Source: an uncultured Phycicoccus sp.
GTDB taxonomy: Bacteria > Actinomycetota > Actinomycetes > Actinomycetales > Dermatophilaceae
Length of the DNA stretch: 64,000 bases
Assembly (NCBI RefSeq): GCF_947495705.1
Contig: NZ_CANLZR010000009.1
Location: forward strand, 62,001-126,000
Direction: 5' to 3'
In this document: positions 6,302 through 51,683 of the stretch, piece after piece
How positions within the stretch are numbered: the stretch's first letter is position 1
How the letters are laid out: each line of letters begins with the position of its first letter
Position numbers and translations under genes: made by a program
The notes under the pieces: generated by a model
What the model saw: only the letters and a program-made list of their open reading frames with translations
The model's database searches: none
What the model was told of the DNA's origin: nothing

Positions 6302-6324
6302 GAGCCCACCGTAGGCCCGTGGCC

Positions 6325-7584: not shown

Positions 7585-7664
7585 GGGCGTACACCCTGCC
7601 GGATCGGCTGCGGGAGCGGGGCTTTGGCGCACACAGGCCGCCTCCCCGGGGCGCCCGGCCCGGC

Positions 7665-7684
7665 GCTAGCCGACCGCGGCTAGC
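7665..7684. promoter_or_regulatory. Perfect palindrome over the menB promoter
   Basis: GCTAGCCG (7665-7672) and CGGCTAGC (7677-7684) form an 8-base perfect inverted repeat with a 4-base spacer. It overlaps TAGCCT (7681-7686), a probable -10 hexamer that ends seven bases before the menB GTG. The site also lies 81 bases upstream of the divergent Nramp-like gene. It could be an operator for either gene; no cognate regulator is evident. Confidence 0.45.
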
Positions 7685-7693
7685 CTTGCGCAC

Positions 7694-8635: not shown

Positions 8636-8669
8636 GGCCGCACCCGCCGCCACCCGTCGGGGTGACCCC

Positions 8670-9125: not shown

Positions 9126-9215
9126 CGTCGACCTCCTCCGGTCCCCCCATGGTCCCCGAAATGCGACCCGGGGGCCATGGGTGCCGAGGCCGGCCGTCCT
9201 CCTAGAGTGAGCGGC

Positions 9216-10382
9216 ATGGAGGTCGACGCACTCGCGGTGCCCGCGGGGCCTGCCGCCGCGGCGGTCCTCCCCCGGCTCGCCGCCGCCCTGGCCGGCGGGG
9301 GGCCGGTCGCGCCGTACCCGGCCGAGGCCTCCCCGCCCGTGCTGCCCCGGCACTCCGCCGCCGGCCTGCCCGACGACCTCGCCGTCGTCATCGGGACCTC
9401 CGGCTCGACGGGCTCCCCGAAGCTCGCGATGCTCGGGGCGGCGGCCCTGACGGCGAGCGCCCGCGCCACCCACGCCCGGCTGGGCGGACCCGGCCAGTGG
9501 CTGCTCACGCTCCCGGCCGGCCATGTCGCCGGGGTCCAGGTGCTCCTGCGCAGCCTCGACGCCGACACCGAGCCCGTCGTCACCGACCTGACCGGTGGCT
9601 TCACTCCCGCGGCGTTCGCGGCGTCCGCCGCCCGGCTCGACCCGCGGCACCGCCACTACACCGCCCTCGTCCCGACCCAGCTCGCCCGGGTCCTCGACGA
9701 CCCCCGACCCGCCCGGGCCCTGGCGACGTTCGCCGCGGTCCTCGTGGGCGGGGCGGCGACGCCCGCGCCCCTGCGCCGCCGTGCCGAGGCGGCCGGGGTC
9801 CGGGTCGTCACCACCTACGGGATGAGCGAGACCGCCGGCGGCTGCGTCTACGACGGCCGCGCCCTGACCGGCACGAGGGTCCGGGTCGACGACGCCGGGC
9901 GGGTCCATCTCGGCGGGGCGACCCTGGCCCACGGGTACCTCGGCAGGCCCGACCTCACCTTCGCGGCGTTCACCGTCGACCCCGACGGCTCCCGGTGGTT
10001 CCGCACCGACGATGCCGGGCGCCTCGACGACGACGGCGTGCTCCACGTCGAGGGCCGCCTCGACGACCTCGTCGTGACCGGGGGGATGAAGGTCGCTCCC
10101 CGGGTCGTCGAGGAGGCAGCGCTCGAGCACGTCCCGGGGGTCGGCGAGGCGGTCGTCGTCGGGGTCCCGGACCCGGAGTGGGGACAGGCCGTGAGCCTCC
10201 TCGTCGTCCCGGCGCCGGGAGCCCGGCCGCTGTCCCTCGCCGAGATCCGGGACCACCTGCGGGGGCACTTGCCGGACCACGCCCTCCCCCGGCGCGTCAC
10301 GAGCGCACCCGCGGTCCCCCTCCGCGGCCCGGGCAAGCCGGACCGGGGCGCCGTCGCCGCGCTCTTCGACGTGGGAGAATAG
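9216..10382 (+). CDS. menE: o-Succinylbenzoate-CoA ligase
   Basis: This 388-residue acyl-adenylate-forming enzyme activates o-succinylbenzoate for MenB. Visible motifs are the P-loop TSGSTGSPK (residues 61-69), TTYGMSETAGG, the hinge region RTDDAGRLDDDGVLHVEGRLDD and the catalytic C-terminal lysine in GPGKPDRGAV. It is shorter than enterobacterial MenE, as is usual in actinobacteria, because the N-terminal domain is reduced. TAGAGT (9203-9208) ends seven bases before the ATG, consistent with a leaderless transcript. The next gene follows after four bases. Confidence 0.92.
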   Translation: MEVDALAVPAGPAAAAVLPRLAAALAGGGPVAPYPAEASPPVLPRHSAAGLPDDLAVVIGTSGSTGSPKLAMLGAAALTASARATHARLGGPGQWLLTLPAGHVAGVQVLLRSLDADTEPVVTDLTGGFTPAAFAASAARLDPRHRHYTALVPTQLARVLDDPRPARALATFAAVLVGGAATPAPLRRRAEAAGVRVVTTYGMSETAGGCVYDGRALTGTRVRVDDAGRVHLGGATLAHGYLGRPDLTFAAFTVDPDGSRWFRTDDAGRLDDDGVLHVEGRLDDLVVTGGMKVAPRVVEEAALEHVPGVGEAVVVGVPDPEWGQAVSLLVVPAPGARPLSLAEIRDHLRGHLPDHALPRRVTSAPAVPLRGPGKPDRGAVAALFDVGE

Positions 10383-11922: not shown

Positions 11923-12933
11923 TCACAGACCCGAGTAGGAGTGCTGGCCGACGAAGTACACGTTGACGACGGCGAAGTTGAGGATGACGCAGACGAACCC
12001 CGCGAGGGCGATCCACACCGCGTTCTGGCGCTTCCACCCGGTCGTCGCGCGGGCGTGCAGGTAGGCCGCGTAGACGGTCCAGATGACGAAGCTCCAGACC
12101 TCCTTGGGGTCCCAGTTCCAGTACGAGCCCCAGGCCTGGCGGGCCCAGATGGCGCCGGCGATGACGGTGAAGGTCCACATCGGGAACGCGACGACGTGCG
12201 CGGCGTAGGTGAGCCGCTCCAGCGCCCGCGCGGAGGGCAGGCGCGCCATGAACGACCGGCGCGCACCGCCGCCGGCCTCGAGCCGGTCCTGGACGAGGTA
12301 CAGCACGCCGAGCGCGGCGCCGATGGTGAAGACGGCGACGGTCATCGTGGCGACGGTGACGTGGATGGCGAGCCAGTACGACTTCAGCGACGGCATGAGC
12401 TCGGAGGCGTCGGTGTACCAGACGACGACGGCGGCACCGAGGGTGAGGAGCACCGGCGTGACGACGAAGAGCCCGAGCCAGCGCAGGTCGCGGCGGGTGG
12501 ACCACCCGATGAACCCGAGCAGGGTGAACATCGCACCGACGAGCGCGAACTCGTACATGTTGCCCAGCGGCCAGCGGTGCACCTCGGCGGCCCGCAGGCC
12601 GACGCCCGCCACGAGGAGTGCGGTCCCGAGGAGGGTCAGCGCCCAGCCGACGCCCGCGGCCTGCCGGGCGCCGCGGGGCTCGGCATCGCCCGGTCCGCCG
12701 GTTTGGGCGGCGTCGGGGGCGGCCGGCTCGACGGGCCCGTCCTGGTCGGCGTCGGTGGCGTTCCCGGCGGTGACGAGCCGGCGCTCGCGCACCGCCTCCT
12801 GGGACGCGTCGTCGGCGTGCCCCGGAGCGATCCGGGCCAGGTAGAGCGCGTAGGCGAGCATCGCGAGGGTCAGCACGGCCATCGCGGAGTACACGGCCTG
12901 GTTCGACAGCTGGGCGAGCGAGGTGTCGGTCAT
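11923..12933 (-). CDS. ccsB: Cytochrome c biogenesis protein CcsB/CcsA (haem handling)
   Basis: This 336-residue polytopic membrane protein of system II cytochrome c maturation has the tryptophan-rich WWD signature in SYWNWDPKEVWSFVIW and flanking conserved histidines (IHVTVAT, AHVVAFP). It delivers haem to apocytochromes with ResB on the outer face of the membrane. A linker of about 60 acidic, Ala-rich residues after TM1 is longer than usual. The ATG at 12933 overlaps the resB stop as ATGA. Confidence 0.93.
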   Translation of the reverse strand: MTDTSLAQLSNQAVYSAMAVLTLAMLAYALYLARIAPGHADDASQEAVRERRLVTAGNATDADQDGPVEPAAPDAAQTGGPGDAEPRGARQAAGVGWALTLLGTALLVAGVGLRAAEVHRWPLGNMYEFALVGAMFTLLGFIGWSTRRDLRWLGLFVVTPVLLTLGAAVVVWYTDASELMPSLKSYWLAIHVTVATMTVAVFTIGAALGVLYLVQDRLEAGGGARRSFMARLPSARALERLTYAAHVVAFPMWTFTVIAGAIWARQAWGSYWNWDPKEVWSFVIWTVYAAYLHARATTGWKRQNAVWIALAGFVCVILNFAVVNVYFVGQHSYSGL

Positions 12934-14537
12934 CGGGTTCCTTCTGGTGCGGTGAGCACGGCGGCGACCTCGTCGTCCATGCCCTCGTCGTCGTCCTTCG
13001 CCAGGCCTCCGACGGAGACCACGGTACGTCCTGGCTCGCCTGCGGGGCGAACTCGCACGAACACCCTTCGACGGCGGACGACGAGGCTGAGGACGAGGCC
13101 CCCGAGCGCCAGCAGGGCGGACACGAGGGTCAGCATCTTGCCGGGGTCGGTGCGGATCGAGAGGCCGGCGAACCGCTCGATCCCGTCGAAGGTGATCGAG
13201 CCGCGCCCCTCGGGCAGGTCGAAGGTGTCCCCGGGGCGCAGGAGGATGCGGAGCTGGCCCTCGCCGTCCTTGCCGGGCAGCGGCGTCATCTCGGCGGTGT
13301 CGAGGGTGTACACCGACTGCGGGGCACCGGCGGGGAACAGCGTCCCCTGGAACGCGGTGAGGGCCAGCTGCGGGTCGAGGGTGTCCGGGAAGACCGAGTG
13401 CGGGCCGCGCTCGTCGTCGATGACCCCGGTCGGCAGGAAGAACCCGGCGAAGCCCAGCTGGTCCGGCTGGGCGCCCGCCACCTTGACCGCGCCGACCGAG
13501 GTGTAGTTGTTGTCCTCCGGCAGGAACGGCGTCGCGTCGGAGTAGATCACCGTGCCGTCGGCGTCGCGCACGGTGATGCGCGGGGCGTACCCGTTGCCGA
13601 GCAGGAAGACGGTGCCGTTGCCGGTCTCGAGCGGGCGGTTGACCGCGATCTCGCGCTCTTCCTCGCGGCCCTCCGCGTCGGTGAGGGTGGCGCTCGCCAG
13701 GAAGTCGCGGGGCGCGCCGAACTGGCCGCGGCCGGTGTCCTCGGTCTCGAACTCGACGTCCAGCCGGTCGAGCCGGATCGTGTACGGGTCGAGGTCGGTG
13801 GGGTCGACCCACGGGCCGGGGCTGAAGGTGTCGTAGCGGGACAGGGTGTTCGCGAAGGTCTGCCCCACCGGCAGGATGACGTCCCCCTTCCAGCCCAGCA
13901 GGTGCCCCCAGGCGACCCCGACGAGGACGCCGATGAGCGCCAGGTGGAAGACGAGGTTGCCGCTCTCCTTGAGGTAGCCCTTCTCGGCCGAGAGCGTCAC
14001 CCCGTCGTGCGCGTGGACGCGGTACCGCCGGGAGCGCAGCGCCTGGCGGAGCCGCTCCCGGACCGCGTCCGGGTCGCCCTCCACCTCGAGCTCGCGGTGT
14101 GCGGCGAGCCGCTCGAGACGCCGGGGAGCCCGCGGGGGCCGGGAGCGCATCTGGTGCCAGTGGATGCGGCTGCGCGGGGCCACACAGCCGATGAGGGAGA
14201 CGAAGAGCAGGAGGTAGATGGCGGCGAACCACGGCGAGGCGTAGACCTCGAAGAACCCGAGCCGGTCCAGGATCGGCCCGGCCGTCGGGTGGTCGGTGAG
14301 CCACTGGGCGGTGCGCGCCGCGTCGATCGAGCGTTGCGGGAACGTCGACCCCGGGATGGCGGCGACCGAGAGCAGCAGGAGGAGGAAGAGCGCGGTCCGC
14401 ATGCTCGTCAGCTGGCGCCAGGCGTACCGCAGCCAGCCCACCGGGCCGAGCCGTGGCTGGCTGACCGAGCCGCCGGCCCCGCCGCCGTCGACGGGGGCGG
14501 GCTGGGTGCTCAGGGCGTCGTCGCGCGTCGTGCTCAC
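12930..14537 (-). CDS. resB: Cytochrome c biogenesis protein ResB
   Basis: This 535-residue ResB/Ccs1 protein is the CcsB partner in system II. It has TM helices near residues 45-65, 100-118 and 200-220, a large extracytoplasmic domain, and a final TM ([20 protein letters not shown]) before a charged tail. Typical ResB segments include [20 protein letters not shown] and [23 protein letters not shown]. The start is GTG 14537, overlapping the ccdA stop by GTGA. Confidence 0.93.
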
Positions 14538-38946: not shown

Positions 38947-39396
38947 TCAGCCGGGCCGGGCCTCGAGCACCGCCTTGAGCGCGGCGAGGTCCTTGGTGTT
39001 GGCGCGGGCGATGGCGGCCCGCATCATCGGCGCGGCGACCGCGCCGAACCCCGAGGGGGTCCCGTGGTTGCGCAGCCCGACGAGGGTCCGCGCGTCCCCG
39101 GCGGCCTCGAACGTGTACTCGGTCGTCATGGGGAACGGGCCCTGGGCGGTCGACATCACCATCCGCTCGCCGGGCACGAGGTCGACCACCTCGTAGGTGT
39201 AGTCGAGCCGCCGGCCGAGGAACGCCGCGACGAAGCGCATCCGGCTGCCGACCCCCACCGGCTCCCCCGTGAGCAGCTCCACGGACCGGATGTTCGCGTA
39301 CCACTGCGGGGCGTTGCGCGGGTCGCACGTGTACGCCGCGACCTGCGCGACCGGACGGTCGACCACGATGTCGGTGCTGACGTCGACGGCGGGCAT
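38947..39396 (-). CDS. SRPBCC-fold lipid-binding-like protein
   Basis: This 149-residue START/Bet v1-type protein has DIVVDRPVAQVAAYTCDPRNAPQWYANIRSVELLT (residues about 8-42), GSRMRFVAAFLGRRLDYTYEV and MTTEYTFEAAG. It resembles polyketide cyclase/dehydrase-type proteins that bind hydrophobic ligands. The ATG overlaps the nadC stop as TGATG. Its role in NAD synthesis, if any, is unknown. Confidence 0.8.
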   Translation of the reverse strand: MPAVDVSTDIVVDRPVAQVAAYTCDPRNAPQWYANIRSVELLTGEPVGVGSRMRFVAAFLGRRLDYTYEVVDLVPGERMVMSTAQGPFPMTTEYTFEAAGDARTLVGLRNHGTPSGFGAVAAPMMRAAIARANTKDLAALKAVLEARPG

Positions 39397-40286
39397 CAGG
39401 CTCCTTCGGGGTCGAGGTCGAGGGCGATGTCGACGATCGGCGAGGAGTGCGTGAGCCCGCCCACGGAGAGGTAGTCGACCCCGGTGGCCGCATAGTCCCG
39501 CGCCACCTCGAGGGTCAGGCCCCCGGTGGCCTCCACCTCCACCCGCTCCCCCGTGGCCCGGACCGCCCGGACCGTCTCGCGGAGCAGCGCCGGGGACATG
39601 TTGTCGCACAGGAGGAACCGTGCACCGGCGGCGACGGACTCCAGCGCCTCGGCCGTCGTCGTCACCTCGACCTGGACGTCGACGTCCGGGTAGGCCGCAC
39701 GGATCGCGTCGTACGCCTCGGTGAGCCCACCCGCGGCGAGCTTGTGGTTGTCCTTGACCATCGCGACGTCGTAGAGACCCATCCGCTTGTTCGTCCCGCC
39801 GCCGCACCGCACGGCGTACTTCTCGAGCGCCCGCAGGCCGGGTGTCGTCTTGCGGGTGTCCAGCACCGTGGCGCCGGTGCCGTCGAGCGCATCGGCCCAG
39901 CGCCGCGTATGGGTCGCGACGCCCGAGGTCCGCGACAGCACGTTGAGGATGGTCCGCTCGGCGATGAGCGTCGTGCGGGTCGAGCCCCGCAGCGTCGCGA
40001 GGTGGTCGCCGCGTGCGACTCGCGCACCGTCCTCGACGTGGACGTCGACGCGCACAGCTCCGGTCCCGAGCCGCCGCTGCACCGCATCGAGCACCAGCGC
40101 GGCGACCGGCAGCCCGGCCACCACCCCGTCGGCCCGGGCGACGACGTGCGACGTCGAGCGCTGGGCGGCGGGGACCGTCGCGAGCGTCGTCACGTCCCGT
40201 CCGCCGTCGGCCGTCCCGAGGTCCTCGTCGAGGGCACGCTCGACGACGAGGAGCGCCTCGGTACGGGGGAACGCGAACCCGGTCAC
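39396..40286 (-). CDS. nadC: Nicotinate-nucleotide pyrophosphorylase (carboxylating)
   Basis: This 296-residue quinolinate phosphoribosyltransferase forms NaMN. Diagnostic stretches are ERTILNVLSRTSGVATHTRRW, LDTRKTTPGLRALEKYAVRCGGG, NHRMGLYD-like NKRMGLYDVAMVKDNH, and the C-terminal VEATGGLT and YLSVGGLTHS. GTG 40286 overlaps the nadB stop (GTGA). It works directly after NadB; nadA is not in the window. Confidence 0.96.
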   Translation of the reverse strand: MTGFAFPRTEALLVVERALDEDLGTADGGRDVTTLATVPAAQRSTSHVVARADGVVAGLPVAALVLDAVQRRLGTGAVRVDVHVEDGARVARGDHLATLRGSTRTTLIAERTILNVLSRTSGVATHTRRWADALDGTGATVLDTRKTTPGLRALEKYAVRCGGGTNKRMGLYDVAMVKDNHKLAAGGLTEAYDAIRAAYPDVDVQVEVTTTAEALESVAAGARFLLCDNMSPALLRETVRAVRATGERVEVEATGGLTLEVARDYAATGVDYLSVGGLTHSSPIVDIALDLDPEGA

Positions 40287-41974
40287 GACCGGACCCCCAT
40301 GGGCCGCGACACCGGGCGCTCGCCGAGGACCAGCCGGCCGTCGGCGCCCCGGGCCAGCTCCTGGTGCACGAGCCAGCGCTCGTCGTCCCGCTCCGGAGCG
40401 TCGGTTCGGATGTGCCCCCCGCGCGTCTCCTCCCGCCGGTGCGCCAGCAGCGCGAGCGCCTGGCCGAGATGGAGCAGGTTCGTCGTCTCCCAGGTGAAGG
40501 GCCCCGGCTCGGCCGCGCTGGGCGGCAGCGCGGCGAGGGCCTCCAGCGCCGCGGCGGCGGCCGCGGTCGAGGTGGCGCTGCGCAGCGGGCCGCAGCCGCG
40601 GGTCATCGCCCGCTGGACCTCGATCCGGTGGCTCGCGTCGAGCAGGTCCGCGGGTGCGTCGGCCGCCGCCGGGGTGCGGAGTGCGAGCTCGCCGTCGTCG
40701 AGCCGGGCGGCCACGTCGTCGGCGATCCGGTGCGCGAAGACGAGACCCTCGAGCAGGGAGTTGGACGCGAGCCGGTTGGCCCCGTGGACCCCCGTGCACG
40801 ACACCTCCCCGCACGCGTACAGGCCGTCGAGGCTCGTGCGTCCGCGCAGGTCGGTCTCGACCCCGCCCGACGCGTAGTGCTGGGCCGGCGCCACCGGCAG
40901 CGGCTCGGTCGCCGGGTCGAAGCCGAGCTCGCGGCACCGGGCCACGATCGAGGGGAACCGCTGCTCGAGGAAGTCCCGGCCGAGGTGCCGCGCGTCGAGC
41001 CAGACGTGGTCGAGGCCGCGCTCGGCCATGACGTCGAGGATCCCCCGCGCGACGATGTCCCGCGGCGCGAGGTCCGCGAGCTCGTGGCGGCCCTGCATGA
41101 AGCGTCGGCCGGTGTCGTCGACGAGGACCGCGCCCTCGCCACGGACCGCCTCGGAGATCAGCGGCTGCTGGCCCGTCGAGCCCTCGCCGAGGAAGAGCAC
41201 CGTGGGGTGGAACTGGACGAACTCCAGGTCGGCCACCCGGGCCCCGGCCCGCAGCGCCGCGGCGATCCCGTCCCCCGTCGCGACGTGCGGGTTCGTCGTC
41301 GAGGTGTAGATCTGCCCGAAGCCGCCGGTCGCGAGCACGACGGCACGGGCATGGGCGGCGCCGATGCCGTCGATCTGCCCCTCGCCGATGACGTGCAGCG
41401 TCACCCCGCACACCGCGCGCTCGTCGTCGGTGAGCAGGTCGACGACGAGCGCGTGCTCGATGACCTCGATGCCCGGGTCGTCGAGCACGCGCTGAAGGGC
41501 GGTGATGAGCGCGCGGGAGATCTCGGCCCCGGTGGCGTCCCCGCCGGCGTGGGCGATCCGGTCGCGGTGGTGACCGCCCTCGCGGGTCAGCTTGATCTCG
41601 CCGCCGGCGTCGAGGTCGAACTGGGCGCCGAGCGCGACGAGCTCGCGCACCCGGTCCGGGCCCTCGGTCACCAGGGTCCGCACGGCCTCCACGTCGCACA
41701 GGCCGACCCCCGCCACGAGGGTGTCCTCGAGGTGCTCCTGGGCGGTGTCGTCGGGGTCGAGCGCGGCGGCGATGCCGCCCTGCGCCCAGCCGGTGGACCC
41801 CGCCGACAGCACGGTCTTGGTCACGAGGAGCACCCGGTCCACACGGCGGCGCAGCCGCAGTGCGCAGGTGAGCCCGGCGATCCCCGACCCGACGACGACG
41901 ACGTCGGCCTCGGCCGTCCAGCCCGGGGCGGCGGCGGCGAGGCGGCGCGGCAGCGTGACGTCGATGGCGGCCAT
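40283..41974 (-). CDS. nadB: L-aspartate oxidase
   Basis: This 563-residue FAD enzyme oxidises L-aspartate to iminoaspartate for quinolinate synthesis. It has ADVVVVGSGIAGLTCALRL, STGWAQGGIAAALD, the catalytic TREGGHHRDRIAHAGGDATG region, FVQFHPTVLF and GLYACGEVSCTGVHGANRLASNSLLEGLV (residues about 360-390). It is coupled by GTGA to nadC, and its start lies eight bases after panC. Confidence 0.95.
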   Translation of the reverse strand: MAAIDVTLPRRLAAAAPGWTAEADVVVVGSGIAGLTCALRLRRRVDRVLLVTKTVLSAGSTGWAQGGIAAALDPDDTAQEHLEDTLVAGVGLCDVEAVRTLVTEGPDRVRELVALGAQFDLDAGGEIKLTREGGHHRDRIAHAGGDATGAEISRALITALQRVLDDPGIEVIEHALVVDLLTDDERAVCGVTLHVIGEGQIDGIGAAHARAVVLATGGFGQIYTSTTNPHVATGDGIAAALRAGARVADLEFVQFHPTVLFLGEGSTGQQPLISEAVRGEGAVLVDDTGRRFMQGRHELADLAPRDIVARGILDVMAERGLDHVWLDARHLGRDFLEQRFPSIVARCRELGFDPATEPLPVAPAQHYASGGVETDLRGRTSLDGLYACGEVSCTGVHGANRLASNSLLEGLVFAHRIADDVAARLDDGELALRTPAAADAPADLLDASHRIEVQRAMTRGCGPLRSATSTAAAAAALEALAALPPSAAEPGPFTWETTNLLHLGQALALLAHRREETRGGHIRTDAPERDDERWLVHQELARGADGRLVLGERPVSRPMGVRS

Positions 41975-41981
41975 CCCCGGG

Positions 41982-42899
41982 TCAGACGTCCGCGCGGGCG
42001 TGGGGTGCCTCGGAGAACACGTCGACCGCGCCGCCGCCGGGGCCCAGGACGACGGGCGTGTTGTCGATGAGGCGCGTCGTGCCGATCCGCGCGGCAACCG
42101 CGAGCAGCGCCTCCCCGCGGTACCACTCGGGCACGTCCGCGAGGGTGTCCGGGTGGACGAGGACGAGGTAGTCGACGAGGGCGAGGGGCTCCTCGACGAG
42201 CACCTCGCGCGCGGCCCGGCGCACCGCCGACGGCCCGTACGGTGCGGCCTCCGAGCCGGCGCGCAGCGACCGGCTCAGGCAGAGCGCGACGGCCCGGTCC
42301 GACTCGGTGAGGTAGGTGTTGCGGCTGCTCATCGCCAGCCCGTCCGGCTCGCGCACGGTCGGCACCGACACGATGTCGACGGGGAAGTCGAGGTCGCGGA
42401 CCATCCGCCGGATGAGCAGCAGCTGCTGGGCGTCCTTCTGGCCGAAGTACGCGCTGCGGGCCGCGGTCAGGTGCAGCAGCTTGCCGACGACGGTGAGCAC
42501 CCCGTCGAAGTGCCCCGCCCGGGAGGCGCCCTCGAGCACCTCGCCGAGCGGGCCGGCGGACACCCGCACGCCGGGGTCGCCGTCGGGGTACACGACGTCG
42601 GGGGTAGGGGCGAAGACGATGTCGACGCCGGCCGCCGAGCAGATCCGCATGTCGGAGTCGAACGTGCGCGGGTAGCGCGACAGGTCCTCCTTCGGCCCGA
42701 ACTGGAGCGGGTTGAGGAAGATCGTGACGACGACGTGGTCGTGCCGGCTGCGCGCCGCCCGGATGAGCTGGGCGTGCCCGTCGTGCAGGGCGCCCATCGT
42801 CATGACGACGGCGACGTCACGGCTCGGGAGGGCCTCACGGGCGGCCTTCAGCTCGTCGCGGGTGTGCGCGACGACGGGGGTGGCGGTCGTGGTGGTCAC
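41982..42899 (-). CDS. panC: Pantoate--beta-alanine ligase
   Basis: This 305-residue nucleotidylyltransferase-fold enzyme has MTMGALHDGHAQLIRAAR (the HxGH ATP motif), TIFLNPLQFGPKEDLSRYPR and YFGQKDAQQLLLIRRMVRDL and the KMSKS-like AMSSRNTYLT. The GTG 42899 directly follows the upstream stop. It is the last step of pantothenate synthesis for CoA. The upstream gene occupies the conserved partner position. Confidence 0.95.
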   Translation of the reverse strand: MTTTTATPVVAHTRDELKAAREALPSRDVAVVMTMGALHDGHAQLIRAARSRHDHVVVTIFLNPLQFGPKEDLSRYPRTFDSDMRICSAAGVDIVFAPTPDVVYPDGDPGVRVSAGPLGEVLEGASRAGHFDGVLTVVGKLLHLTAARSAYFGQKDAQQLLLIRRMVRDLDFPVDIVSVPTVREPDGLAMSSRNTYLTESDRAVALCLSRSLRAGSEAAPYGPSAVRRAAREVLVEEPLALVDYLVLVHPDTLADVPEWYRGEALLAVAARIGTTRLIDNTPVVLGPGGGAVDVFSEAPHARADV

Positions 42900-43781
42900 T
42901 CAGCGCTCCTGGTCGGAGAGGATGTCGAGGAGGGGCTCGGCCACCGCGGGGCGGAGCCGGCCGTCGTCGAGGGCGCGCAGCGCGGTGGCCCTGGCGAGCG
43001 CCACGTAGGTCCTCCGGATGTCGGGGGCGAGCCGGTCCAGCTCGCGCAGGTGTGCCCTCACCGTACCGACGTCGCCGCGGGCCACGGGCCCGGTGAGGGC
43101 GGCGTCCCCCATCCGCAGCGCGTTGTCCACCGCGGCGTGCAGCAGCGGGGCCAGGACGGCGCGGGGGTCCTCGACCCCGGCGCGGGTGAGCACGTCCATC
43201 GCCTCCACGGTCAGCGTCACGAGGTGGTTGGCCCCGTGGGCGAGCGCCGCGTGGTAGGCGAGGCGGTCCTCCTCCTCCACCCAGACCGGCGAGCCACCCA
43301 TCTCGAGGACGAGCGCCTCGGCCACCGCGCGCAGCGCCTCGTCAGCGGTGACGCCGAAGGTGCAGTCGGCGAGGCGGTCGAGGTCCATCGCGGTGCCGGT
43401 GAAGGTCATCGCGGGGTGGAGGGCGAGGGGCATCGCGTGGTGCGCGCGCACGGGGTCCAGGACGGCGGTGCCCGAGCGTCCGCTCGTGTGGACGACGATC
43501 TGCCCCGCCTGCCAGCCGCCGGTGGCCGAGAGCCCCGCCACCAGGTCGGCGAGGGCGTCGTCGGGCACGGCGAGGATGACGAGCTCCGCACCGGCGACGA
43601 CGGTGGCGACGTCCTCGACGGGCACGCCGGGCAGCAGGGCCGCGGCGCGGGCGAGGCTGGCGTCCGAGACGGCGTACGCGCCCGTGACGCGATGGCCGGC
43701 CCGGGCGAGGGCCGCGCCGAGCACGGCACCGACGCGTCCGGCCCCGACGACACCGACGGTGAGCCGGGCGGGGTGCTCCAT
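42900..43781 (-). CDS. Rossmann-like and DUF2520 domain protein
   Basis: This 293-residue protein has a dinucleotide fold VGVVGAGRVGAVLGAALARAG and a helical C-terminal DUF2520 domain with HPAMTFTG and YHAALAHGANHLVTLTVEAM. Such genes precede panC throughout actinobacteria (Rv3603c in M. tuberculosis, as I recall). A role as a ketopantoate reductase has been suggested by context but is unproven here. ATG 43781 is favoured over GTG 43790. Confidence 0.85.
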   Translation of the reverse strand: MEHPARLTVGVVGAGRVGAVLGAALARAGHRVTGAYAVSDASLARAAALLPGVPVEDVATVVAGAELVILAVPDDALADLVAGLSATGGWQAGQIVVHTSGRSGTAVLDPVRAHHAMPLALHPAMTFTGTAMDLDRLADCTFGVTADEALRAVAEALVLEMGGSPVWVEEEDRLAYHAALAHGANHLVTLTVEAMDVLTRAGVEDPRAVLAPLLHAAVDNALRMGDAALTGPVARGDVGTVRAHLRELDRLAPDIRRTYVALARATALRALDDGRLRPAVAEPLLDILSDQER

Positions 43782-43913
43782 GCCGTCCACGAGCGAGCAC
43801 GCTACCCCTCCGCGCCCGACGCCCCCGGCCCCTCCCCGCCCCGCCCCTCCCGTCCGCCGGTCCGACGCCGTGCCGGGCGACGCGCCCGCTCGCGGGGGAC
43901 ACGGACCCGCGAC

Positions 43914-43954
43914 GACAAGCGAACTTGACATATGGAAAGGTCGCTTGTCATAGT
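43914..43954 (+). promoter_or_regulatory. Promoter and operator of the membrane protein/XRE pair
   Basis: TTGACA (43925-43930) and CATAGT (43949-43954) are 18 bases apart and end six bases before ATG 43961, so the transcript is probably leaderless. GACAAGCGA (43914-43922) and TCGCTTGTC (43941-43949) form a perfect 9-base inverted repeat that brackets the -35 and touches the -10. Binding there would block polymerase; the downstream XRE regulator is the likely ligand. Confidence 0.7.
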
Positions 43955-43960
43955 CCTGCC

Positions 43961-44359
43961 ATGCACACGACACGACCGATCAGCTGGTTCAACCGAGTCC
44001 TGCTCACCGTCCTCGTCGCTGGGGCCGTCTGGTGCGCGGTCACCGGGGTGTGGCTCCTCGCCGTCGTCCTCGCCGCTGCCGTGGCGTACCTCGGGCTCAG
44101 CATCGCGCGGGCGAGGCGCGGATCGGGCTCGGACCGGAGCCGCGTCAACGCGGTCCAGCCCTTCGACGAGCGCGAGCGCGACGCCTCCACCCGGGCGCTC
44201 GCCCTGGTCGGCCAGACCTCGATCATCGCGCTCATGAGCATCTTCATCGCCCAGGCCGCGACCCGCGACGGCCGGGTGGACCCGGTCGTCGCGGGTGTCC
44301 TCATCGTCCTCGCGGCGGTCTGGGGCGTCGGGATCCAGGTCGCCGTCCGGAGGGGCTGA
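43961..44359 (+). CDS. Two- to four-helix membrane protein paired with XRE regulator
   Basis: This 132-residue protein has hydrophobic segments near residues 12-45 and 85-130 flanking a cytosolic stretch RVNAVQPFDERERDASTRAL. DUF2178/DUF3796-like membrane proteins of this size are often encoded directly before a small XRE regulator. The ATG at 43961 lies at the probable transcription start. An upstream ATG (43932) would overlap the -35/-10 region and is rejected. Function unknown. Confidence 0.75.
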   Translation: MHTTRPISWFNRVLLTVLVAGAVWCAVTGVWLLAVVLAAAVAYLGLSIARARRGSGSDRSRVNAVQPFDERERDASTRALALVGQTSIIALMSIFIAQAATRDGRVDPVVAGVLIVLAAVWGVGIQVAVRRG

Positions 44360-44360
44360 G

Positions 44361-44576
44361 GTGGACAACGAGGTCCGCAGGCTGCGCACCGAGCGCGGGC
44401 TGTCGCAGGCCGCGCTCGGTGCGGCGCTCGGCGTCTCCCGGCAGACCATCAACTCGCTGGAGGCCGGCCGGTACGACCCGTCGCTGCCGCTGGCCATCCT
44501 CCTCGCACGGTTCTTCGCGACCCCGGTGGAGTCGCTGTTCCACCTCCCCGACGAGTCGGGTCCCGGCCGAGGCTGA
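44361..44576 (+). CDS. Small XRE/Cro-type transcriptional regulator
   Basis: This 71-residue helix-turn-helix protein reads LRTERGLSQAALGAALGVSRQTINSLEAGRYDPSLPLAI (residues 8-46), the YozG/Cro-like family with an LF-domain tail (FFATPVESLFHL). GTG 44361 follows the upstream stop by one base, with GGAGG as ribosome-binding site. It probably autoregulates the pair through the inverted repeat upstream. Confidence 0.9.
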   Translation: MDNEVRRLRTERGLSQAALGAALGVSRQTINSLEAGRYDPSLPLAILLARFFATPVESLFHLPDESGPGRG

Positions 44577-44600
44577 GCGCGCGGCCGCTACCGTGCCGGG

Positions 44601-45566
44601 GTGAGCTCACTGCCCTGGCGCGAGGCGTGGCAGGCAGCCCTGTACGGCCCCGACGGGTTCTACCGCGCCGAACCAGGGCCCGTCGGCCACTTCACGACCT
44701 CCACCCACGGCCCGCTCGGCGCCGTGTTCGCCGAGGCGATCGCGGCCCTAGCCGACCGCGAGGGAGCGACGCACGTCGTCGACGTCGGAGCCGGACGCGG
44801 AGAGCTGCTCGTCGCCCTGCACCGTGGCCGCCCCGACCTCGACCTGACCGGCGTGGACGTCGTCGACCGGCCCACGGCGCTGCCGGGGTCGGTGCGGTGG
44901 CTCGTCTCCCCCGGCGGGGCGGAGCTGCCCACTGACCTCGTAGACCTGGACGGGGTCCTCGTCGTCGCCCACGAGTGGCTGGACGTCGTGCCCTGCACGA
45001 TCGTCGAGGTCCTCGACGACGGGACGCCGCGCACCGTCTCCGTCGACGCGGGGGCACGCACCGAGAGCCTCGTCGGCGAGCTGTCCCCCAAGGACGCGGC
45101 ATGGTGCGCCGCGCACTGGCCGATGGACGGGATGCCGCGTCGCGGGCACCGGGTCGAGGTCGGGCTGGCGCGCGACCGGGCGTGGAGCGACCTCGTCTCA
45201 CGGGTCCGCCGCGGCACGCTCCTCGCCGTGGACTACGGCCACACCCGCGACACCCGGCCGCCGTCGGGAACGCTCGTCGGCTACCGGGACGGCACCGCCG
45301 TCCCCGCGCTGCCCGACGGGACGTGCGACCTCACCGCCCACGTCGCCGTCGACAGCCTGGAGCAGGACGAGCGGTGGACCCAGCGGGAGGCGCTGCACCG
45401 GCTCCTCGGCCGGCCCGGCGTGCCCGACCACGCCCTCGCGACCACCGACCCCGCGGCGTACGTCGCCGGCCTCGCCCGAGCCGGCGCCCTGCGCGCGCTC
45501 ACCGCGCCCGGCGGCCTCGGCGACTTCCACTGGGTGGTCCGCCGGTGCGGCAGACTGACCGGGTGA
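44601..45566 (+). CDS. MidA/NDUFAF7-type SAM-dependent methyltransferase
   Basis: This 321-residue protein carries the MidA (DUF185) layout: [16 protein letters not shown] (PGYY-like start), [21 protein letters not shown], the SAM motif [27 protein letters not shown] (N/H-E-x-x-D loop) and [14 protein letters not shown]7, the mitochondrial member, dimethylates an arginine in NDUFS2, the NuoD counterpart. Here its stop overlaps the start of a NuoD gene (GTGA). TACCGT (44589-44594) ends six bases before the GTG. Its length, about 320, is shorter than typical MidA (about 360-400). Confidence 0.85.
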
Positions 45567-46741
45567 CCTCCGACGCCCCCGCCGGCCCAAGGGCGCTCGA
45601 CGTCGCCGTCGGGGCGGGGGGCCTGGCCACGGCGGACATGGTCCTGAACATCGGGCCGCAGCATCCCGCGACGCACGGCGTCCTCCGGCTCAAGGTCGTC
45701 CTCGACGGCGAGCGCATCCTCAGCGCCGAGCCGGTCATCGGCTACATGCACCGCGGCGCCGAGAAGCTGTTCGAGGTGCGCGACTACCGGCAGATCACCG
45801 TGCTCGCGAACCGGCACGACTGGCTGTCCGCGTTCTCCAGCGAGCTCGGCGTCGTCCTCGGCGTCGAGGCGATGCTCGGCATGGAGGTGCCCGAGCGCGC
45901 GGTCTGGCTCCGGACCCTGCTAGCCGAGCTCAACCGCGTTCTCTCCCACCTGATGTTCCTCGGCTCCTACCCCCTCGAGCTCGGCGCCATCACCCCCGTC
46001 TTCTACGCCTTCCGGGAGCGCGAGGAGCTGCAGGCCGTCATGGAGGAGGCCTCCGGCGGGCGGATGCACTACATGTTCAACCGGGTCGGCGGCCTCAAGG
46101 AGGACGTGCCCGCGGGGTGGCTCGGGCGGGTCGAGGCGGCCCTGTCGTCGGTGCGCCGCCGGCTGCCCGAGCTGGAGTCGCTGCTCGTCGGCAACGAGAT
46201 CCTCCTGGCCCGCACGCGGGGGGTCGGCGTGCTCGACGAGGCCACCTGCCTCGCGTACGGCGTCTCGGGCCCGATCGCCCGGGCCAGCGGCATCGACCTC
46301 GACCTGCGCCGCGACGACCCCTACCTCGCGTACGGCGAGCTGTTCGCCCCCGGCGGGCCCGGCCGGGTCGTCACCCGCACCGAGGGCGACTGCCTCGCCC
46401 GGCTGGAGGTGCTCATCGAGCAGGTGCACGTGAGCCTCGACCTCGCCGACGCCTGCGTCGACCGGCTCCGCTCGCTCCCCGCGGGCCCGGTCAACCAGCG
46501 CCTGCCCAAGGTGCTCAAGGTCCCCGAGGGCGAGCGGTACACCGCCACCGAGAACCCGCTCGGTCTCAACGGCTACTACCTCGTCTCGCGCGGCGAGAAG
46601 ACGCCGTGGCGGCTCAAGCTGCGCTCGGCGTCCTTCGGCAACGTCCAGGTGCTCTCGGAGGTGCTGCCGGGCTGCATCGTCGCCGACATGGTCGCCGTGC
46701 TCGGGTCGATGTTCTTCGTCGTCGGCGACGTCGACAAGTAG
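45563..46741 (+). CDS. nuoD: Orphan NADH-quinone oxidoreductase subunit D-like protein
   Basis: This 392-residue NuoD/Nqo4-type 49-kDa subunit has [17 protein letters not shown] (His34, His38), [12 protein letters not shown] (Arg64) and [35 protein letters not shown] (C-terminus). It is encoded alone, outside any nuo operon, and translationally coupled to a MidA methyltransferase. At the conserved quinone-headgroup Tyr (Tyr87 of T. thermophilus Nqo4, in RLDY) this protein has Trp87 (NRHDWLSAF). It may be a second complex I subunit or a divergent paralogue. Confidence 0.85.
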
Positions 46742-46759
46742 CGCCGCGGTCGTCCTCTG

Positions 46760-47233
46760 TCAGTCGGGGTCGCGCGTCGGCGGCTCGCCGTTCTCGTCGA
46801 TGCGGCACCACGCCTGCGCGACCATGCCGCACACGGCCAGCGCGACCGAGGCGAGGAGCATGAGCCCGAACGGCACCAGCCGCTCCCGGTTCGCGACGAG
46901 CGAGAGGTCGCTGAGCAGCACGATGACGGCGCCGAGGTACCAGCCGGCGACGGCGGCCCCGGTGAGCGCGGCCGCCTGCGACAGCACCACCGTGCGGGCC
47001 GCCCGGAGCGCGTCGAGCGAGGTCCTGGCCCCGCTGCGTAGGTGCCGCCGCACCGGGCGGGCGATCCACAGCACCAGCCCCCCCATGACGAGCAGGAGTA
47101 CGCCGGCCGCCCACTGCGGACGCTGCAGCAGCGCGCCGTCACGGGTGATGACCAGGCTCGCGCCGTAGCCGAGCACCGTCAGGACGGCGGCGACGAGGAC
47201 GAGGGTCTGGACGCGGATGCCGTCGCGGCTCAC
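46760..47233 (-). CDS. DUF3180 membrane protein
   Basis: This 157-residue protein has four hydrophobic helices (TLVLVAAVLTVLGYGASLVI; WAAGVLLLVMGGLVLWIA; ALTGAAVAGWYLGAVIVLL; LMLLASVALAVCGMVAQAW). It matches DUF3180, always next to folK in actinobacteria, such as Rv3605c. The GTG 47233 overlaps the folB/K stop. Function unknown. Confidence 0.88.
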   Translation of the reverse strand: MSRDGIRVQTLVLVAAVLTVLGYGASLVITRDGALLQRPQWAAGVLLLVMGGLVLWIARPVRRHLRSGARTSLDALRAARTVVLSQAAALTGAAVAGWYLGAVIVLLSDLSLVANRERLVPFGLMLLASVALAVCGMVAQAWCRIDENGEPPTRDPD

Positions 47234-48138
47234 TGCTGGCCTTCCTGGGCGGTGGCGGGACCGCGGCGGCGGACCCCGGAGGTGTCGAGGCCGCGGACGA
47301 GGTCGGCGACCCGCACCGGCGCGCCGTCGTGCCGGAGCACGGCGTCGGGGTCGGCGTCGAGCCACGGGACGAGGACGAAGCCACGCTCGTGGGCGCGCGG
47401 GTGCGGCAGGGTGAGCGCGGGCGCGTCGGACACGACGTCCCGCCCGGTCCGTGGGTCGCCGTACTGGACGAGGTCGACGTCGAGGGTCCGCGGCCCCCAC
47501 CGCACCTCCCTCGTCCGCGCGAACATGAACTCGACGACGTGCAGCATCTCGAGCAATGTCGCGGGCGAGAGCGTCGTCGTCGCGGTGACGACCGCGTTGA
47601 CGAACACCGGCTGTTCCGGGCCACCGACCGGGTCGGTCTCGTACAGGGAGGAGACGACCATGTCGTCGAGCTCGGCCAGGGGCTCGAGCTGCTCGAGCGC
47701 GTCGACGACTGTCTCCGCGGGCGTGCCGTCACCGTGCGGCAGGTTGGCCCCGAGCGCGATGACGACCGGCGCCGGCCGCCGGGTGCGCGTCACGGTGACC
47801 GCGACGTCCCCGAACGGGACCGGCACCGGGGCCTGCGGCTTGTGGACGGTGACCTCGACCTCGTCCACCCGCACGTCGTCGAGCACGTCGTCGGCGATGA
47901 CCGCCGCCAGCCGCTCGATGAGGTCGAACGGCTCGCCCTCGATCCGGGCGACGACGGCCGACGCCAGCCCGCCGTAGTCCACCGTCTCGGCGAGCTCGTC
48001 GGTCTGCCCGGCCCTGGTGAGGTCGAGCGCGAGGACGACGTCGACGACGAACTCCTGCCCGTCGCGCTTCTCGTGCTCGAACACCCCGTGGTACCCGGTG
48101 GCCCGGACCCCGCGCAGCGCGATGCGGTCGCCGGTCAC
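47230..48138 (-). CDS. folK: Dihydroneopterin aldolase/HPPK fusion
   Basis: This 302-residue bifunctional folate enzyme joins an N-terminal FolB domain (residues 1-118: ALRGVRATGYHGVFEHEKRDGQEFVVDV, ETVDYGGLA, FDLIERLA) to a C-terminal FolK pyrophosphokinase (about 125-290: PVVIALGANLPHGDGTP, ETDPVGGPEQPVFVNAVV, RWGPRTLDVDLV, LPHPRAHERGFVL). M. tuberculosis keeps the two as separate adjacent genes. GTG 48138 overlaps folP. Confidence 0.95.
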   Translation of the reverse strand: MTGDRIALRGVRATGYHGVFEHEKRDGQEFVVDVVLALDLTRAGQTDELAETVDYGGLASAVVARIEGEPFDLIERLAAVIADDVLDDVRVDEVEVTVHKPQAPVPVPFGDVAVTVTRTRRPAPVVIALGANLPHGDGTPAETVVDALEQLEPLAELDDMVVSSLYETDPVGGPEQPVFVNAVVTATTTLSPATLLEMLHVVEFMFARTREVRWGPRTLDVDLVQYGDPRTGRDVVSDAPALTLPHPRAHERGFVLVPWLDADPDAVLRHDGAPVRVADLVRGLDTSGVRRRGPATAQEGQQ

Positions 48139-48980
48139 GATGCATCACCGCCGAGCGCGGCGACGACGTCGAGCGCGTCGACGGCGGCCACGACGTCGTG
48201 GACCCGGACGCACCAGGCGCCCAGGCGCGCGGCGTGCGCCGTCGTGACGGCCGTGGCGACGTCCCGCTCGAGCGGGGGCCGCTCGGCACCCGGCTCTCGC
48301 CCGACCTTGCCGAGGAACGCCTTGCGTGAGGTCCCGACGAGCACCGGATGCCCGAGCGCGAGCACCTCCTCGAGGCGGCGCAGGAGCTGCCAGTTGTGCT
48401 CGGCGGTCTTCGCGAAGCCGAACCCGGGGTCGAGCACCAGCCGCTGCGGCGCCACCCCCGCCGCGACGAGGGCCTCGGCCCGTTCGGCCAGCTCGCGGCA
48501 CACGTCGGCGACGACGTCGTCGTAGACCGCCCGCTCCTGCATGCCGGCGCTGTGCCCACGCCAGTGCATCGCGATGAAGGGGACGCCTCGCTCGGCGACG
48601 AGGGGCACCATGTCGGGGTCGGCGAGCCCACCCGACACGTCGTTGACCAGCGTGGCTCCCACGTCCAGGGCGGCCGCCGCCACCGAGGCGCGCATCGTGT
48701 CGATCGACACCGGGCCGAGCCCGGCCAGCCCCTCGACGACCGGCAGGACCCGGCGCAGCTCCTCGGCCTCGGAGGGACGCTCGGCCCCGGGGCGGGTCGA
48801 CTCGCCGCCGACGTCAAGGACGTCGGCCCCCTGGCCGCGCAGCGCCCGCCCGTGCGCGAGCGCGTCCCCGGGCTGGAACCACGCCCCGCCGTCGCTGAAG
48901 GAGTCGGGGGTCACGTTGACGACCCCCATGACGACGGGCCGCCCGGGGCGCCCGACCGGCAGCTCCGTCGCCGGGGTCAC
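48135..48980 (-). CDS. folP: Dihydropteroate synthase
   Basis: This 281-residue TIM barrel joins pABA to the pterin pyrophosphate, the sulfonamide target. It has [59 protein letters not shown] and [11 protein letters not shown]. The start GTG 48980 overlaps the folE stop (GTGA). It is coupled to folB/K downstream. Confidence 0.96.
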
Positions 48981-49600
48981 CGCTTGCCGCCGAGCAGGAG
49001 CGACATCGCCTCCGCCCGCGTCGCGGGGTCCCGCAGCTGGCCGCGGACGGCCGAGGTGATGGTGCGCGAGCCGGGCTTCTGCACGCCGCGCATCGACATG
49101 CACAGGTGCTCGGCCTCGACGACGACGATGACGCCCTGGACCCCCAGATGCTCGACGAGCGCGTCGGCCACCTGCGTCGTGATCTGCTCCTGGACCTGCG
49201 GGCGGCGGGCGAAGACCTCGACGAGGCGCCCGAGCTTGGACAGGCCGGTCACGCGGCCGTCGGACCCGGGGATGTACCCGATGTGGGCCTCACCGTGGAA
49301 CGGCAGCAGGTGGTGCTCACACGTCGAGTACATCGGGATGTCCCGGACGATGATGAGCTCTTCGTGCTCGATGGGGAAGGTCGTGGCGAGCACGTCGGAG
49401 GCCTCCTGCCACAGCCCGGCGTAGAGCTCGTGGGCTGCCCTGGCGACCCTGGCCGGGGTCTCGGCCAGGCCGTGCCGGTCGGGGTCCTCGCCGATCGCGA
49501 GCAGGAACTCACGCACCGCCGCCTCGGCTCGAGGCACGTCGACCGGCGGCCGCTGGGCCGCCGCCGACGAGCCGACCGGGTCAGGGGTCGACACGTCCAC
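48977..49600 (-). CDS. folE: GTP cyclohydrolase I
   Basis: This 207-residue enzyme opens GTP to dihydroneopterin triphosphate. It has [38 protein letters not shown] (zinc ligands Cys and His), [25 protein letters not shown] (residues about 117-141) and [15 protein letters not shown]. The start is GTG 49600, with GAGG nine bases upstream, overlapping the ftsH end by 20 bases; GTG 49594 is an alternative. FolE, folP and folB/K are read together. Confidence 0.95.
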
Positions 49601-51683
49601 CGTCCGGAACCTCGATGACCTTGGTCGGCGGGTTCTCGTCCGGTGCCGACGAGGCGCCTTCCTCGGCGCGGGCGTCGATGGCGGCCTGGGTGGCCGGGTC
49701 GCCGGGGGTGACGACCGAGCCCTCGGGCGCGGCGGAACCGTTGCGGCCGGCGAGGGCGGCCTGCTCGGCGGGAGTGAGGACCGGCGGGATGTCGGACAGG
49801 GTGCGGTGCTCGCTGGAGAGCCACGCCTCACGCTGCGGGCGCTTGACGATGTCCTTGAAGATCTCGGCCAGCTCGGCGGCGTTCAGGGTCTCCTTCTCGA
49901 GGAGCTCGAGCACCAGCCGGTCCAGGACGTCACGGTTGTCGTTGACGACGTGCCACGCCTCGTCGTGCGCGTCGTCGATGAGCTTGCGGACCTCCTCGTC
50001 GACGACCGCGGCGACCTGCTCGGAGTAGTCGCGCTCGTGACCCATGTCGCGGCCCATGAACGGCTCGCCCTGGGACTGCCCCAGCTTGATCGCCCCGACC
50101 CGCTCGCTCATCCCGTACTCGGTGACCATCTTGCGGGCCATCGCCGTGGCCTTCTCGATGTCGTTGGCGGCCCCGGTGGTGGGGTCGTGGAAGATGATCT
50201 CCTCCGCGACCCGGCCGCCGAGGGCGTACGCGAGCTGGTCGAGGATCTCGTTGCGGGTCGTCGAGTACTTGTCGTCGAGCGGCATGACCATCGTGTAGCC
50301 GAGGGCCCGCCCACGCGGCAGGATCGTCACCTTCGTCACGGGGTCGAGGTGGTTCATCCCGCTCGCGACGAGCGCGTGACCGCCCTCGTGGTAGGCGGTG
50401 ATCTTGCGCTCCTTGGCCGACATGATGCGGGTGCGCTTCTGCGGGCCGGCGATGACGCGGTCGATGGCCTCGTCGAGGACCTCGTCGTCGATGAGCTTCT
50501 TGCTCGTGCGGGCGGTGAGCAGCGCCGCCTCGTTGAGGACGTTCGCGAGGTCGGCGCCGGTGAAGCCCGGCGTGCGGCGCGCGACGGCGAGGAGGTCGAC
50601 CCCGGCCGCCATCGGCTTGCCCTGGCCGTGCACCTGGAGGATCTTGTGACGCCCGATCATGTCGGGGTTCTCGACGGCGATCTGGCGGTCGAAGCGGCCC
50701 GGACGCAGGAGGGCGGGGTCGAGGATGTCGGGCCGGTTCGTGGCCGCGATGAGGATGACGTTGGTCTTGACGTCGAAGCCGTCCATCTCGACGAGCAGCT
50801 GGTTCAGCGTCTGCTCGCGCTCGTCGTGGCCGCCGCCCATGCCGGCGCCGCGGTGGCGGCCGACGGCGTCGATCTCGTCGACGAAGACGATGGCGGGCGC
50901 GTTGGCCTTGGCCTGCTCGAAGAGGTCGCGCACGCGGCTGGCCCCGACACCGACGAACATCTCGACGAAGTCCGAGCCGGAGATCGAGTAGAACGGCACG
51001 CCGGCCTCACCGGCGACGGCCCGCGCGAGCAGGGTCTTGCCGGTGCCGGGCTGGCCGTAGAGCAGGACGCCCTTGGGGATCTTGGCGCCCACGGCGAGGA
51101 ACTTGGCGGGCTCACGGAGGAACTCGACGATCTCGTGGAGCTCCTCGACGGCCTCGTCGGCACCCGCGACGTCGTCGAAGGTGACCTTCGGGGTGTCCTT
51201 CGTGGCGAGCTTGGCGCGGGACTTGCCGAACTGCATGACCCGCGAGCCACCGCCCTGGGCCTGGGTCATGAGCCACCAGAAGAGGCCGACGAGCAGCAGG
51301 ACGGGGAAGAAGCTGATGAAGATGGTCCAGAACGTGCTGTCGCCCTCGACCTTGTCGTCGTAGCCGTCGGGCAGGTTGGTCTTGAGCTCCTCGACGAGCG
51401 ACTCGGCCCGGGCGTCCACGTACTCGGCGCGGACCTGGGTGGCCCCGGAGATGTTCTTCTCCTCGTCCGAGAAGGACTGGCCCTCCTTGAGGTCGAGCGA
51501 GATGACGTTGTCGGTCGTCATCACCGCGGACGCGACCTTCTTGTCGGTGATGAGCTTCTCGGCCTGGGCCGTCGTGATCGTCGTGTACCCGCCGTCGCCG
51601 CCCGTGGTGAAGACGAGCAGCAGCAGCACGAGCGCGGCGAGCACCCAGAAGACGGGGGCCCGGAGAATGCGTTTGAAGTCCAT
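49581..51683 (-). CDS. ftsH: ATP-dependent zinc metalloprotease FtsH
   Basis: This 700-residue membrane AAA+ protease degrades membrane and regulatory proteins. It has two N-terminal TM helices (residues about 9-25 and 110-140), Walker A GQPGTGKT, Walker [12 protein letters not shown], the second region of homology, and the zinc site HEGGH. The usual HEAGH reads HEGGH, still fitting HExxH. A C-terminal tail of about 70 residues is acidic and Gly/Ala-rich. It is the first gene before folE in the fol operon. Confidence 0.97.

Follow-up and report, generated by a model that had tools for sequence, protein, structure and literature searches.

Two overlapping genes in the window, that is, the whole stretch of 64,000 bp analysed here (C9:62001-126000), encode a methyltransferase of the MidA family and a D subunit of complex I, here called NuoD2. 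We think it likely that the pair represents the displaced D subunit of a second complex I of the 11-subunit type together with its own MidA-type arginine methyltransferase, working by the mechanism outlined below. Two new lines of evidence weigh most: an arginine switch between two complexes within one cell, and the finding that MidA and NuoD2 tend to be present in the same genomes. A separated nuoD2 is already known from passages of two Streptomyces papers (PMC8388888, PMC9239103); new here are the tie to MidA, the division of the D/B switch by complex, the Trp87 clade, the association with KorAB and the probable loss of the membrane arm in relatives.

The gene pair in the window

The pair and its direct neighbours comprise the following features.

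44601..45566, plus strand: SAM methyltransferase of the MidA/NDUFAF7 family (COG1565, PF02636), 321 aa, GTG at 44601 to TGA at 45566 (Pfam, profile, AF2 fold)
45563..46741, plus strand: NuoD2, 392 aa, GTG start, R64/W87 type, putative D subunit of nuo2 (PF00346, tree, nuo2 without a D gene)
45563..45566, plus strand: GTGA overlap of the NuoD2 start and the methyltransferase stop (sequence)
45752..45754, plus strand: Arg64 codon (cgc), corresponding to bovine Arg85 and Yarrowia Arg121; Thr64 in Thermus (alignment; passages of PMC3829151 and PMC8042128)
45821..45823, plus strand: Trp87 codon (tgg), at the site of Tyr87 of Thermus Nqo4, which contacts the quinone head group (alignment)
42900..43973, minus strand: neighbouring Rossmann/DUF2520 protein, open frame with provisional start (PF10727 6.8e-36 and PF10728 1e-37 on 42903-43787)
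46760..47323, minus strand: neighbouring DUF3180 membrane protein, stretch searched, start provisional (PF11377 5.3e-27)

The initial annotation had claimed that the methyltransferase stop overlaps the NuoD2 start, and this GTGA is indeed seen in the sequence. Comparison of 81 loci (the window and 80 named relatives) reveals that the linkage of the two genes is wider than this overlap, which is a local feature. The 4-base overlap occurs at 6 of the 81 loci, the window included, and all six belong to the 13 loci where the MidA stop lies no more than 60 nt from the first aligned NuoD2 residue. A distance of 1-6 kb separates the MidA stop from NuoD2 at 50 loci, and at 15 no MidA was found on the NuoD2 strand in the DNA examined. 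MidA is present in the loci of 67 of the 80 named relatives, in 65 of them on the same strand as NuoD2. The neighbourhood of the pair (window positions 39396-51683) is preserved around it in many Actinomycetes; its DUF2520 and DUF3180 genes were assigned by Pfam (a DUF3180 label from our own HMM, which concerned another frame, was set aside), and from their sequences we take further genes in it to be NadB, NadC, PanC, FolK/B, FolP, FolE and FtsH; HepT is a neighbour labelled in the same way.

By family profile and fold the methyltransferase belongs to MidA/NDUFAF7 (COG1565, PF02636). Its Pfam match to PF02636 (2.4e-18) covers only profile positions 77-235 of 249. A 25-row profile finds in the PDB the COG1565 structures 4f3n (1.7e-18) and 1zkd (1.9e-13) as well as MidA itself (5ztz, 2.4e-07), and the AF2 model (pLDDT 93.7) matches 4g67, 4f3n, 5zu0 and 5ztz with E values of 6e-17 to 3e-16 and TM scores of 0.71-0.73 at 17-24% identity. 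The SAM-binding glycine motif and the family motifs, whose meaning in MidA we presume, are found in the window protein and are mostly conserved over the 25 rows. The N-terminal motif of the window enzyme reads GHF, in place of the GDF which we take to be usual in MidA/NDUFAF7 proteins. This change and the incomplete Pfam match count against our reading of the pair. According to passages of PMC3750175 and PMC3829151, NDUFAF7 is the human writer of the dimethylation of an arginine in the D subunit (Arg85 of NDUFS2), and this dimethylation occurs in mammals, Pichia and Paracoccus and is absent in E. coli. The window pair shares with this system the methyltransferase family, the fold and the arginine in HRGxEK beside cluster N2. 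It differs in that the methyltransferase goes with one D paralogue out of the two in the same cell, and in that symmetric dimethylation is here a prediction.

Judged by its domain and motifs NuoD2 appears to be a complex I D subunit (NuoD/NDUFS2): it contains the Complex1_49kDa domain (PF00346, 3.5e-70 in Pfam) and the motifs GPQHPATHG and HRGxEK. Over the key region its numbering equals that of Thermus Nqo4. As the initial annotation had stated, there is an Arg64 within HRGAEKL, which aligns with Thr64 of Nqo4, and a tryptophan, not a tyrosine, opposite Tyr87. NuoD2 thus lacks the quinone-binding tyrosine of a D subunit, and Trp87 is found in 109 of 155 distinct D rows. These rows divide into 107 with Arg64/Trp87, 38 with Thr64/Tyr87, 7 with Arg64/Tyr87, one with Ser64/Tyr87 and two with a gap at 64 and Trp87. 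Among the rows read, the Thr64 and Ser64 ones are the D subunits of the nuo1 type, and NuoD1 of the same genome has Thr64/Tyr87. In a tree of 117 of the 155 rows (rows more than 88% identical to another and rows shorter than 300 residues were dropped) a branch with support 99 separates the R64/W87 rows (81 of the 117) from all others; treekit flagged long branches in this tree, including the reduced-lineage rows L253 and L254. A passage of PMC8119997 calls the quinone tyrosine strictly conserved; this does not hold in the R64/W87 clade.

NuoD2 is 41% identical to NuoD1 of its own genome over the best stretch and lacks a segment of canonical NuoD. Its alignments to FpoD, to the NuoD model PRK12322 and to the D homologues from 6u8y, 6cfw and 7z0s (membrane-bound hydrogenases or related enzymes) each run as a single stretch, and those to the remaining chains compared fall into two. 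Despite this common trait, NuoD2 scores 265 bits on canonical D subunits and 184 on 6u8y, presumably MBX, and it scores higher on NuoD models than on FpoD. The AF2 model of NuoD2 has a pLDDT of 53, and we left its structure out of the argument. That NuoD2 is a decaying leftover we regard as extremely improbable: an internal TAG interrupts the copy of G016 (L011, in a fragmented assembly), but the protein is found at full length and 94% identical in a Phycicoccus, its nearest named relative, from which the host is taken to be Phycicoccus-like, and R64, W87, H34 and H38 are invariant over 16 rows.

A second nuo cluster without a D gene

Within the window no further nuo gene was matched by HMMs of our own for NuoA, B, C, H, I, J, K and L/M/N. 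The same contig, however, carries two nuo clusters. The standard cluster, nuo1, which contains NuoD1, spans roughly C9:40-54.5 kb and is cut at the low end of the stretch examined; Pfam confirms NuoF and NuoG in it. The other, nuo2, lies at C9:21.2-30.3 kb, about 32 kb before the window, and consists of tightly packed genes for A, B, C, H, I, J, K and three L/M/N-type subunits. There is no D gene between C and H, and the packing leaves no room for E, F or G within the cluster. In this nuo2, B and I were assigned by NCBIfam, C by Pfam, H by PF00146 and the others by our own HMMs; the labels A, J, K and L/M/N are what we take these sequences to be. Together with NuoD2 of the window, nuo2 supplies the complete gene set of a complex I of 11 subunits free of an NADH module (A-D and H-N). 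The initial annotation had described NuoD2 as an orphan with no other nuo gene present. This stands for the window (models for A, B, C and H-N) but not for the genome with its nuo1 and D-less nuo2 on the same contig. The genome does hold a standard nuo operon with a D gene of its own, NuoD1, and nuo2 comes in part to the case which the initial annotation had set against its own reading, namely a complex with NuoD2 as its only D subunit.

In members of other classes within the phylum, D genes of this type stand inside intact A-B-C-D-H-I-J-K-L/M/N operons with MidA at the end (L159, L160). Here, then, the D gene and the methyltransferase gene stand next to each other, and both are separated from the rest of the complex. 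NuoD2 is best read as the displaced D subunit of nuo2. A free-standing orphan NuoD2 was rejected, given the D-less nuo2 in its own genome and the intact operons of relatives.

Streptomyces likewise has a second, incomplete nuo cluster, as described in passages on S. ambofaciens (PMC8388888), where nuoD2 is encoded apart from nuo2, and on S. coelicolor (SCO4599-4608, PMC9239103), where the function of nuo2 is stated as unclear. In these passages MidA, Trp87, the arginine switch, KorAB and a loss of the membrane arm are not mentioned, and among the papers listed by our literature searches none was seen to tie MidA to nuoD2. NuoC is said to be missing in a passage of PMC9239103, whereas a gene of the NuoC family is present here in 19 of 20 nuo2 loci, the twentieth being a contig piece which starts at H. 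The gene set described here makes the role of the Streptomyces nuo2 testable with respect to the pairing of D and B, the electron donor and the reason why a methyltransferase travels along.

The arginine switch and the co-occurrence of MidA with NuoD2

A passage of PMC8042128 describes an intersubunit switch: in Yarrowia the arginine is in NDUFS2 and a threonine in NDUFS7, in Thermus the threonine is in Nqo4 and the arginine (Arg83) in Nqo6, and both arginines occupy the same space beside N2. We find the same switch, but with both states side by side in one genome. NuoB adjoining an Arg64-type D has threonine in 22 of 22 cases; NuoB adjoining a Thr/Ser64-type D has arginine in 26 of 28, the other two being gaps. 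Threonine is also found in NuoB of the D-less nuo2 and of clusters reduced to B-C-I (see below). The NuoB rows without an adjacent D row comprise 42 with threonine, 24 with arginine, one with alanine and one gap. Those with arginine and the gap come from nuo1-type clusters in which D either ran into the locus edge or was removed by de-duplication, the alanine row (L299) belongs to a hydrogenase-like cluster, and three of the threonine rows (L084, L086, L090) lie in intact operons. The residue was read by alignment column, which gives threonine at two loci where a loose text pattern read 'A'.

The switch separates the complexes, with NuoD2-Arg and NuoB2-Thr on the one side and NuoD1-Thr and NuoB1-Arg on the other. 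Thus only NuoD2 offers an arginine which could be methylated, and the switch gives independent evidence for pairing NuoD2 with NuoB2. This argues against an exchange in which, in certain conditions, NuoD2 takes the place of NuoD1 in the standard Nuo1 and MidA helps it to mature. Most sampled NuoD2 genomes also carry NuoD1, and a hybrid machinery from nuo and nuo2 products is suggested for Streptomyces in a passage of PMC9239103. In such an exchange, however, Arg64 would face the own arginine of NuoB1, NuoD2 is 41% identical to NuoD1 over the best stretch and lacks one of its segments, and one genome, G050, keeps NuoD2 and MidA without any match to a D, H or B subunit of the nuo1 type. We therefore consider the exchange highly unlikely. 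A cell in which just one of two D subunits has the arginine offers a natural experiment on the purpose of the arginine methylation of NDUFS2.

The presence of MidA follows that of NuoD2. In a sample of the order, NuoD2 was found in 12 of 59 genomes and MidA (PF02636) in exactly those 12. Among 197 genomes of the class, 86 have NuoD2, 79 MidA and 74 both (Fisher 8e-35, shared descent ignored); 12 carry NuoD2 without a MidA match, one of which (G050) is a false negative, and five MidA without NuoD2. G050 was negative in a first-look search, which can miss MidA, and its MidA was found by later searches. Among 296 genomes of the phylum, 105 have a D of the W type, 89 MidA and 72 both, again with shared descent ignored; in 48 of the 72 the two lie on the same contig (45 within 10 kb) and in 24 on different contigs. 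The 105 W-type and 86 NuoD2 genomes were assigned from full-length matches, the residues being read at the 155 distinct rows only. In the phylum sample 33 W-type genomes are without a MidA match and 17 MidA genomes without a W-type D; several genomes of both groups are incomplete.

These counts bear on the view of the initial annotation that the two genes form a dedicated writer-substrate pair. It is strongly, if indirectly, supported by the identical 12 of 59 genomes, by the presence of NuoD2 in 74 of the 79 MidA genomes of the class and by the threonine (one serine) at the target position of the NuoD1 rows. Orphan status of NuoD2 in the genome and a tie between Trp87 and methylation are not supported. 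Because intact operons and genomes lacking a MidA match also contain D subunits of the R64/W87 type, Trp87 looks like a trait of the complex, that is, a clade marker, and not of the MidA-NuoD2 pair or of methylation. MidA could also act on another Nuo2 subunit or on an unrelated protein and owe its position to inertia of the neighbourhood. The spacing of 1-6 kb at 50 of 81 loci, within surroundings which are themselves conserved, would fit this, but MidA stands at the end of the intact operon in other classes and its presence follows NuoD2 in the order and class samples. We judge a different target to be unlikely.

Two genomes of the same family illustrate the association. G034 has NuoD1 with one NuoB and one NuoH beside it and neither NuoD2 nor MidA. 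In G050, whose genome is rated 100% complete, NuoD2 and MidA are present and NuoD1 gives no match; its single NuoB and single NuoH both belong to a nuo2 cluster that lacks D. Nuo2 may thus be the sole complex I with which G050 respires. Its NuoB2 (L162, G050:C1:265001-285000, about 12720-13390, minus strand) has a long, repetitive and charged C-terminal tail with repeats of about DDERAARIAEARRKARERKAE.

Electron donor, proposed mechanism and reduced clusters

Divergent from nuo2 of the window host and about 3 kb off are genes for KorAB, a probable 2-oxoacid:ferredoxin oxidoreductase (KorA, matched by the 2-oxoacid:acceptor oxidoreductase alpha subunit model TIGR03710 with 640 bits; KorB, the TPP-binding beta subunit); a Pfam search between nuo2 and KorAB gave no match. 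In the DNA examined KorAB is found at 7 of 20 nuo2 loci, 11 of 16 B-C-I loci (in one case KorB alone) and 6 of 8 further loci, some of these being cut by contig ends. Of the two donors to be expected for an 11-subunit complex I, ferredoxin and F420H2, this linkage suggests ferredoxin for Nuo2. Since KorAB is seen at part of the loci and not in the DNA examined at the nuo2 locus of G050, a donor other than ferredoxin made by KorAB is possible. For the 11-subunit enzyme of Desulfitobacterium, which like Nuo2 has no NADH module, ferredoxin is proposed as donor in a passage of PMC11238625; this organism is a strict anaerobe, and neither NuoD nor a methyltransferase is named in that text (0 occurrences).

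From gene content, co-occurrence, linkage, residue switch and clade we infer donor, methylation, assembly role and acceptor as follows. Nuo2 would be composed of A, B, C, D, H, I, J, K and three L/M/N-type subunits without an NADH module. Reduced ferredoxin, made at least partly by KorAB, probably feeds the complex, and the electrons would pass through the clusters of NuoI2 to N2 in NuoB2. The most likely task of MidA is to dimethylate Arg64 of NuoD2, either before NuoD2 docks to NuoB2 or while it does so. From the D side Arg64 would fill the place which in the standard complex is taken by the own arginine of NuoB1, and it could hold the NuoD2-NuoB2 pair and cluster N2 together. Tyrosine can donate a proton, and tryptophan cannot do so in that way. 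With Trp87 in place of the quinone tyrosine in the whole clade, the quinone, presumably menaquinone, might be bound or protonated differently. In W-type genomes without a MidA match Arg64 may be unmethylated, as a passage of PMC3750175 reports for E. coli.

In several relatives nuo2 is smaller. In 16 genomes of the class, with one locus each, it consists of B-C-I only, without A, H, J and K of its own, and G369 shows the same. Near some of these loci there are L/M/N genes and, once, a K gene, which by place and strand appear to be the end of nuo1. In the tree the D2 rows of this group fall into a single clade with support 98; of its 16 rows, 15 come from B-C-I genomes and the sixteenth from G402. 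Of the 17 genomes of the reduced group, 16 give a single NuoH match and G355 gives two, with best E values of at least 2e-62, as compared to 2e-106 or lower for full matches of the NuoH2 type. G480, a one-contig genome, also has B-C-I only, with no A, H, J, K or L/M/N beside it, while its congeners G419 and G461 retain the full cluster; the contig of G360 stops after C (NuoH candidates scored: 11 of 15 in G480, 11 of 13 in G360). In the one-contig genome G001 (L165, G001:C1:446000-464000, 6532-8939) A, B, C and a fragment of H are followed by I, and J, K and L/M/N are missing from the locus; this nuo2 remnant looks to be decaying. Total loss of nuo2 in genomes without an NuoH2-type match was rejected where followed up, as a second NuoB and B-C-I clusters were found. 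From the gene contents the membrane arm was probably lost three separate times, that is, in the group of 16 loci with G369, in G480 and in G001.

The reduced clusters keep their Fe-S cysteines. In all 18 loci checked (the 16, G480 and G001) the cysteine motifs of NuoB and the two 4-Cys motifs of NuoI are retained, and NuoD2 of the reduced group has Arg64, Trp87 and both histidines in the rows read; position 139 (Glu in the window) is changed in most. The MidA gene is present in the reduced genomes (partial at the contig edge in G363). All four MidA motifs are matched by loose text patterns in 6 of the 16 reduced-lineage copies checked, and for this reason the methyltransferase may be altered or failing in some of these lineages. 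It is conceivable, though less likely than not, that the B-C-D-I core, with its possibly methylated arginine and its Trp87, is an electron-transfer unit separable from its own arm, with several actinobacterial lineages keeping a ferredoxin-fed NuoBCDI, soluble or docked to Nuo1, together with MidA. That this core is a unit of its own also explains the pair, with MidA serving the core, seems rather doubtful to us, although it is compatible with the preferred reading of a displaced D subunit of a complete Nuo2. The reduced clusters, the conserved motifs and the weaker NuoH matches favour it; yet this evidence comes from relatives while the window host retains the membrane arm, the missing genes may sit elsewhere in draft genomes, and several reduced lineages have a MidA with altered motifs. 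If true, the losses would mean that the quinone module of complex I can exist without its own pump.

In two nuo2 loci (L386 and L387, about 6200-10200) NuoI2 and NuoH2 are separated by some 4 kb of additional DNA; L300 has a similar gap between C and I.
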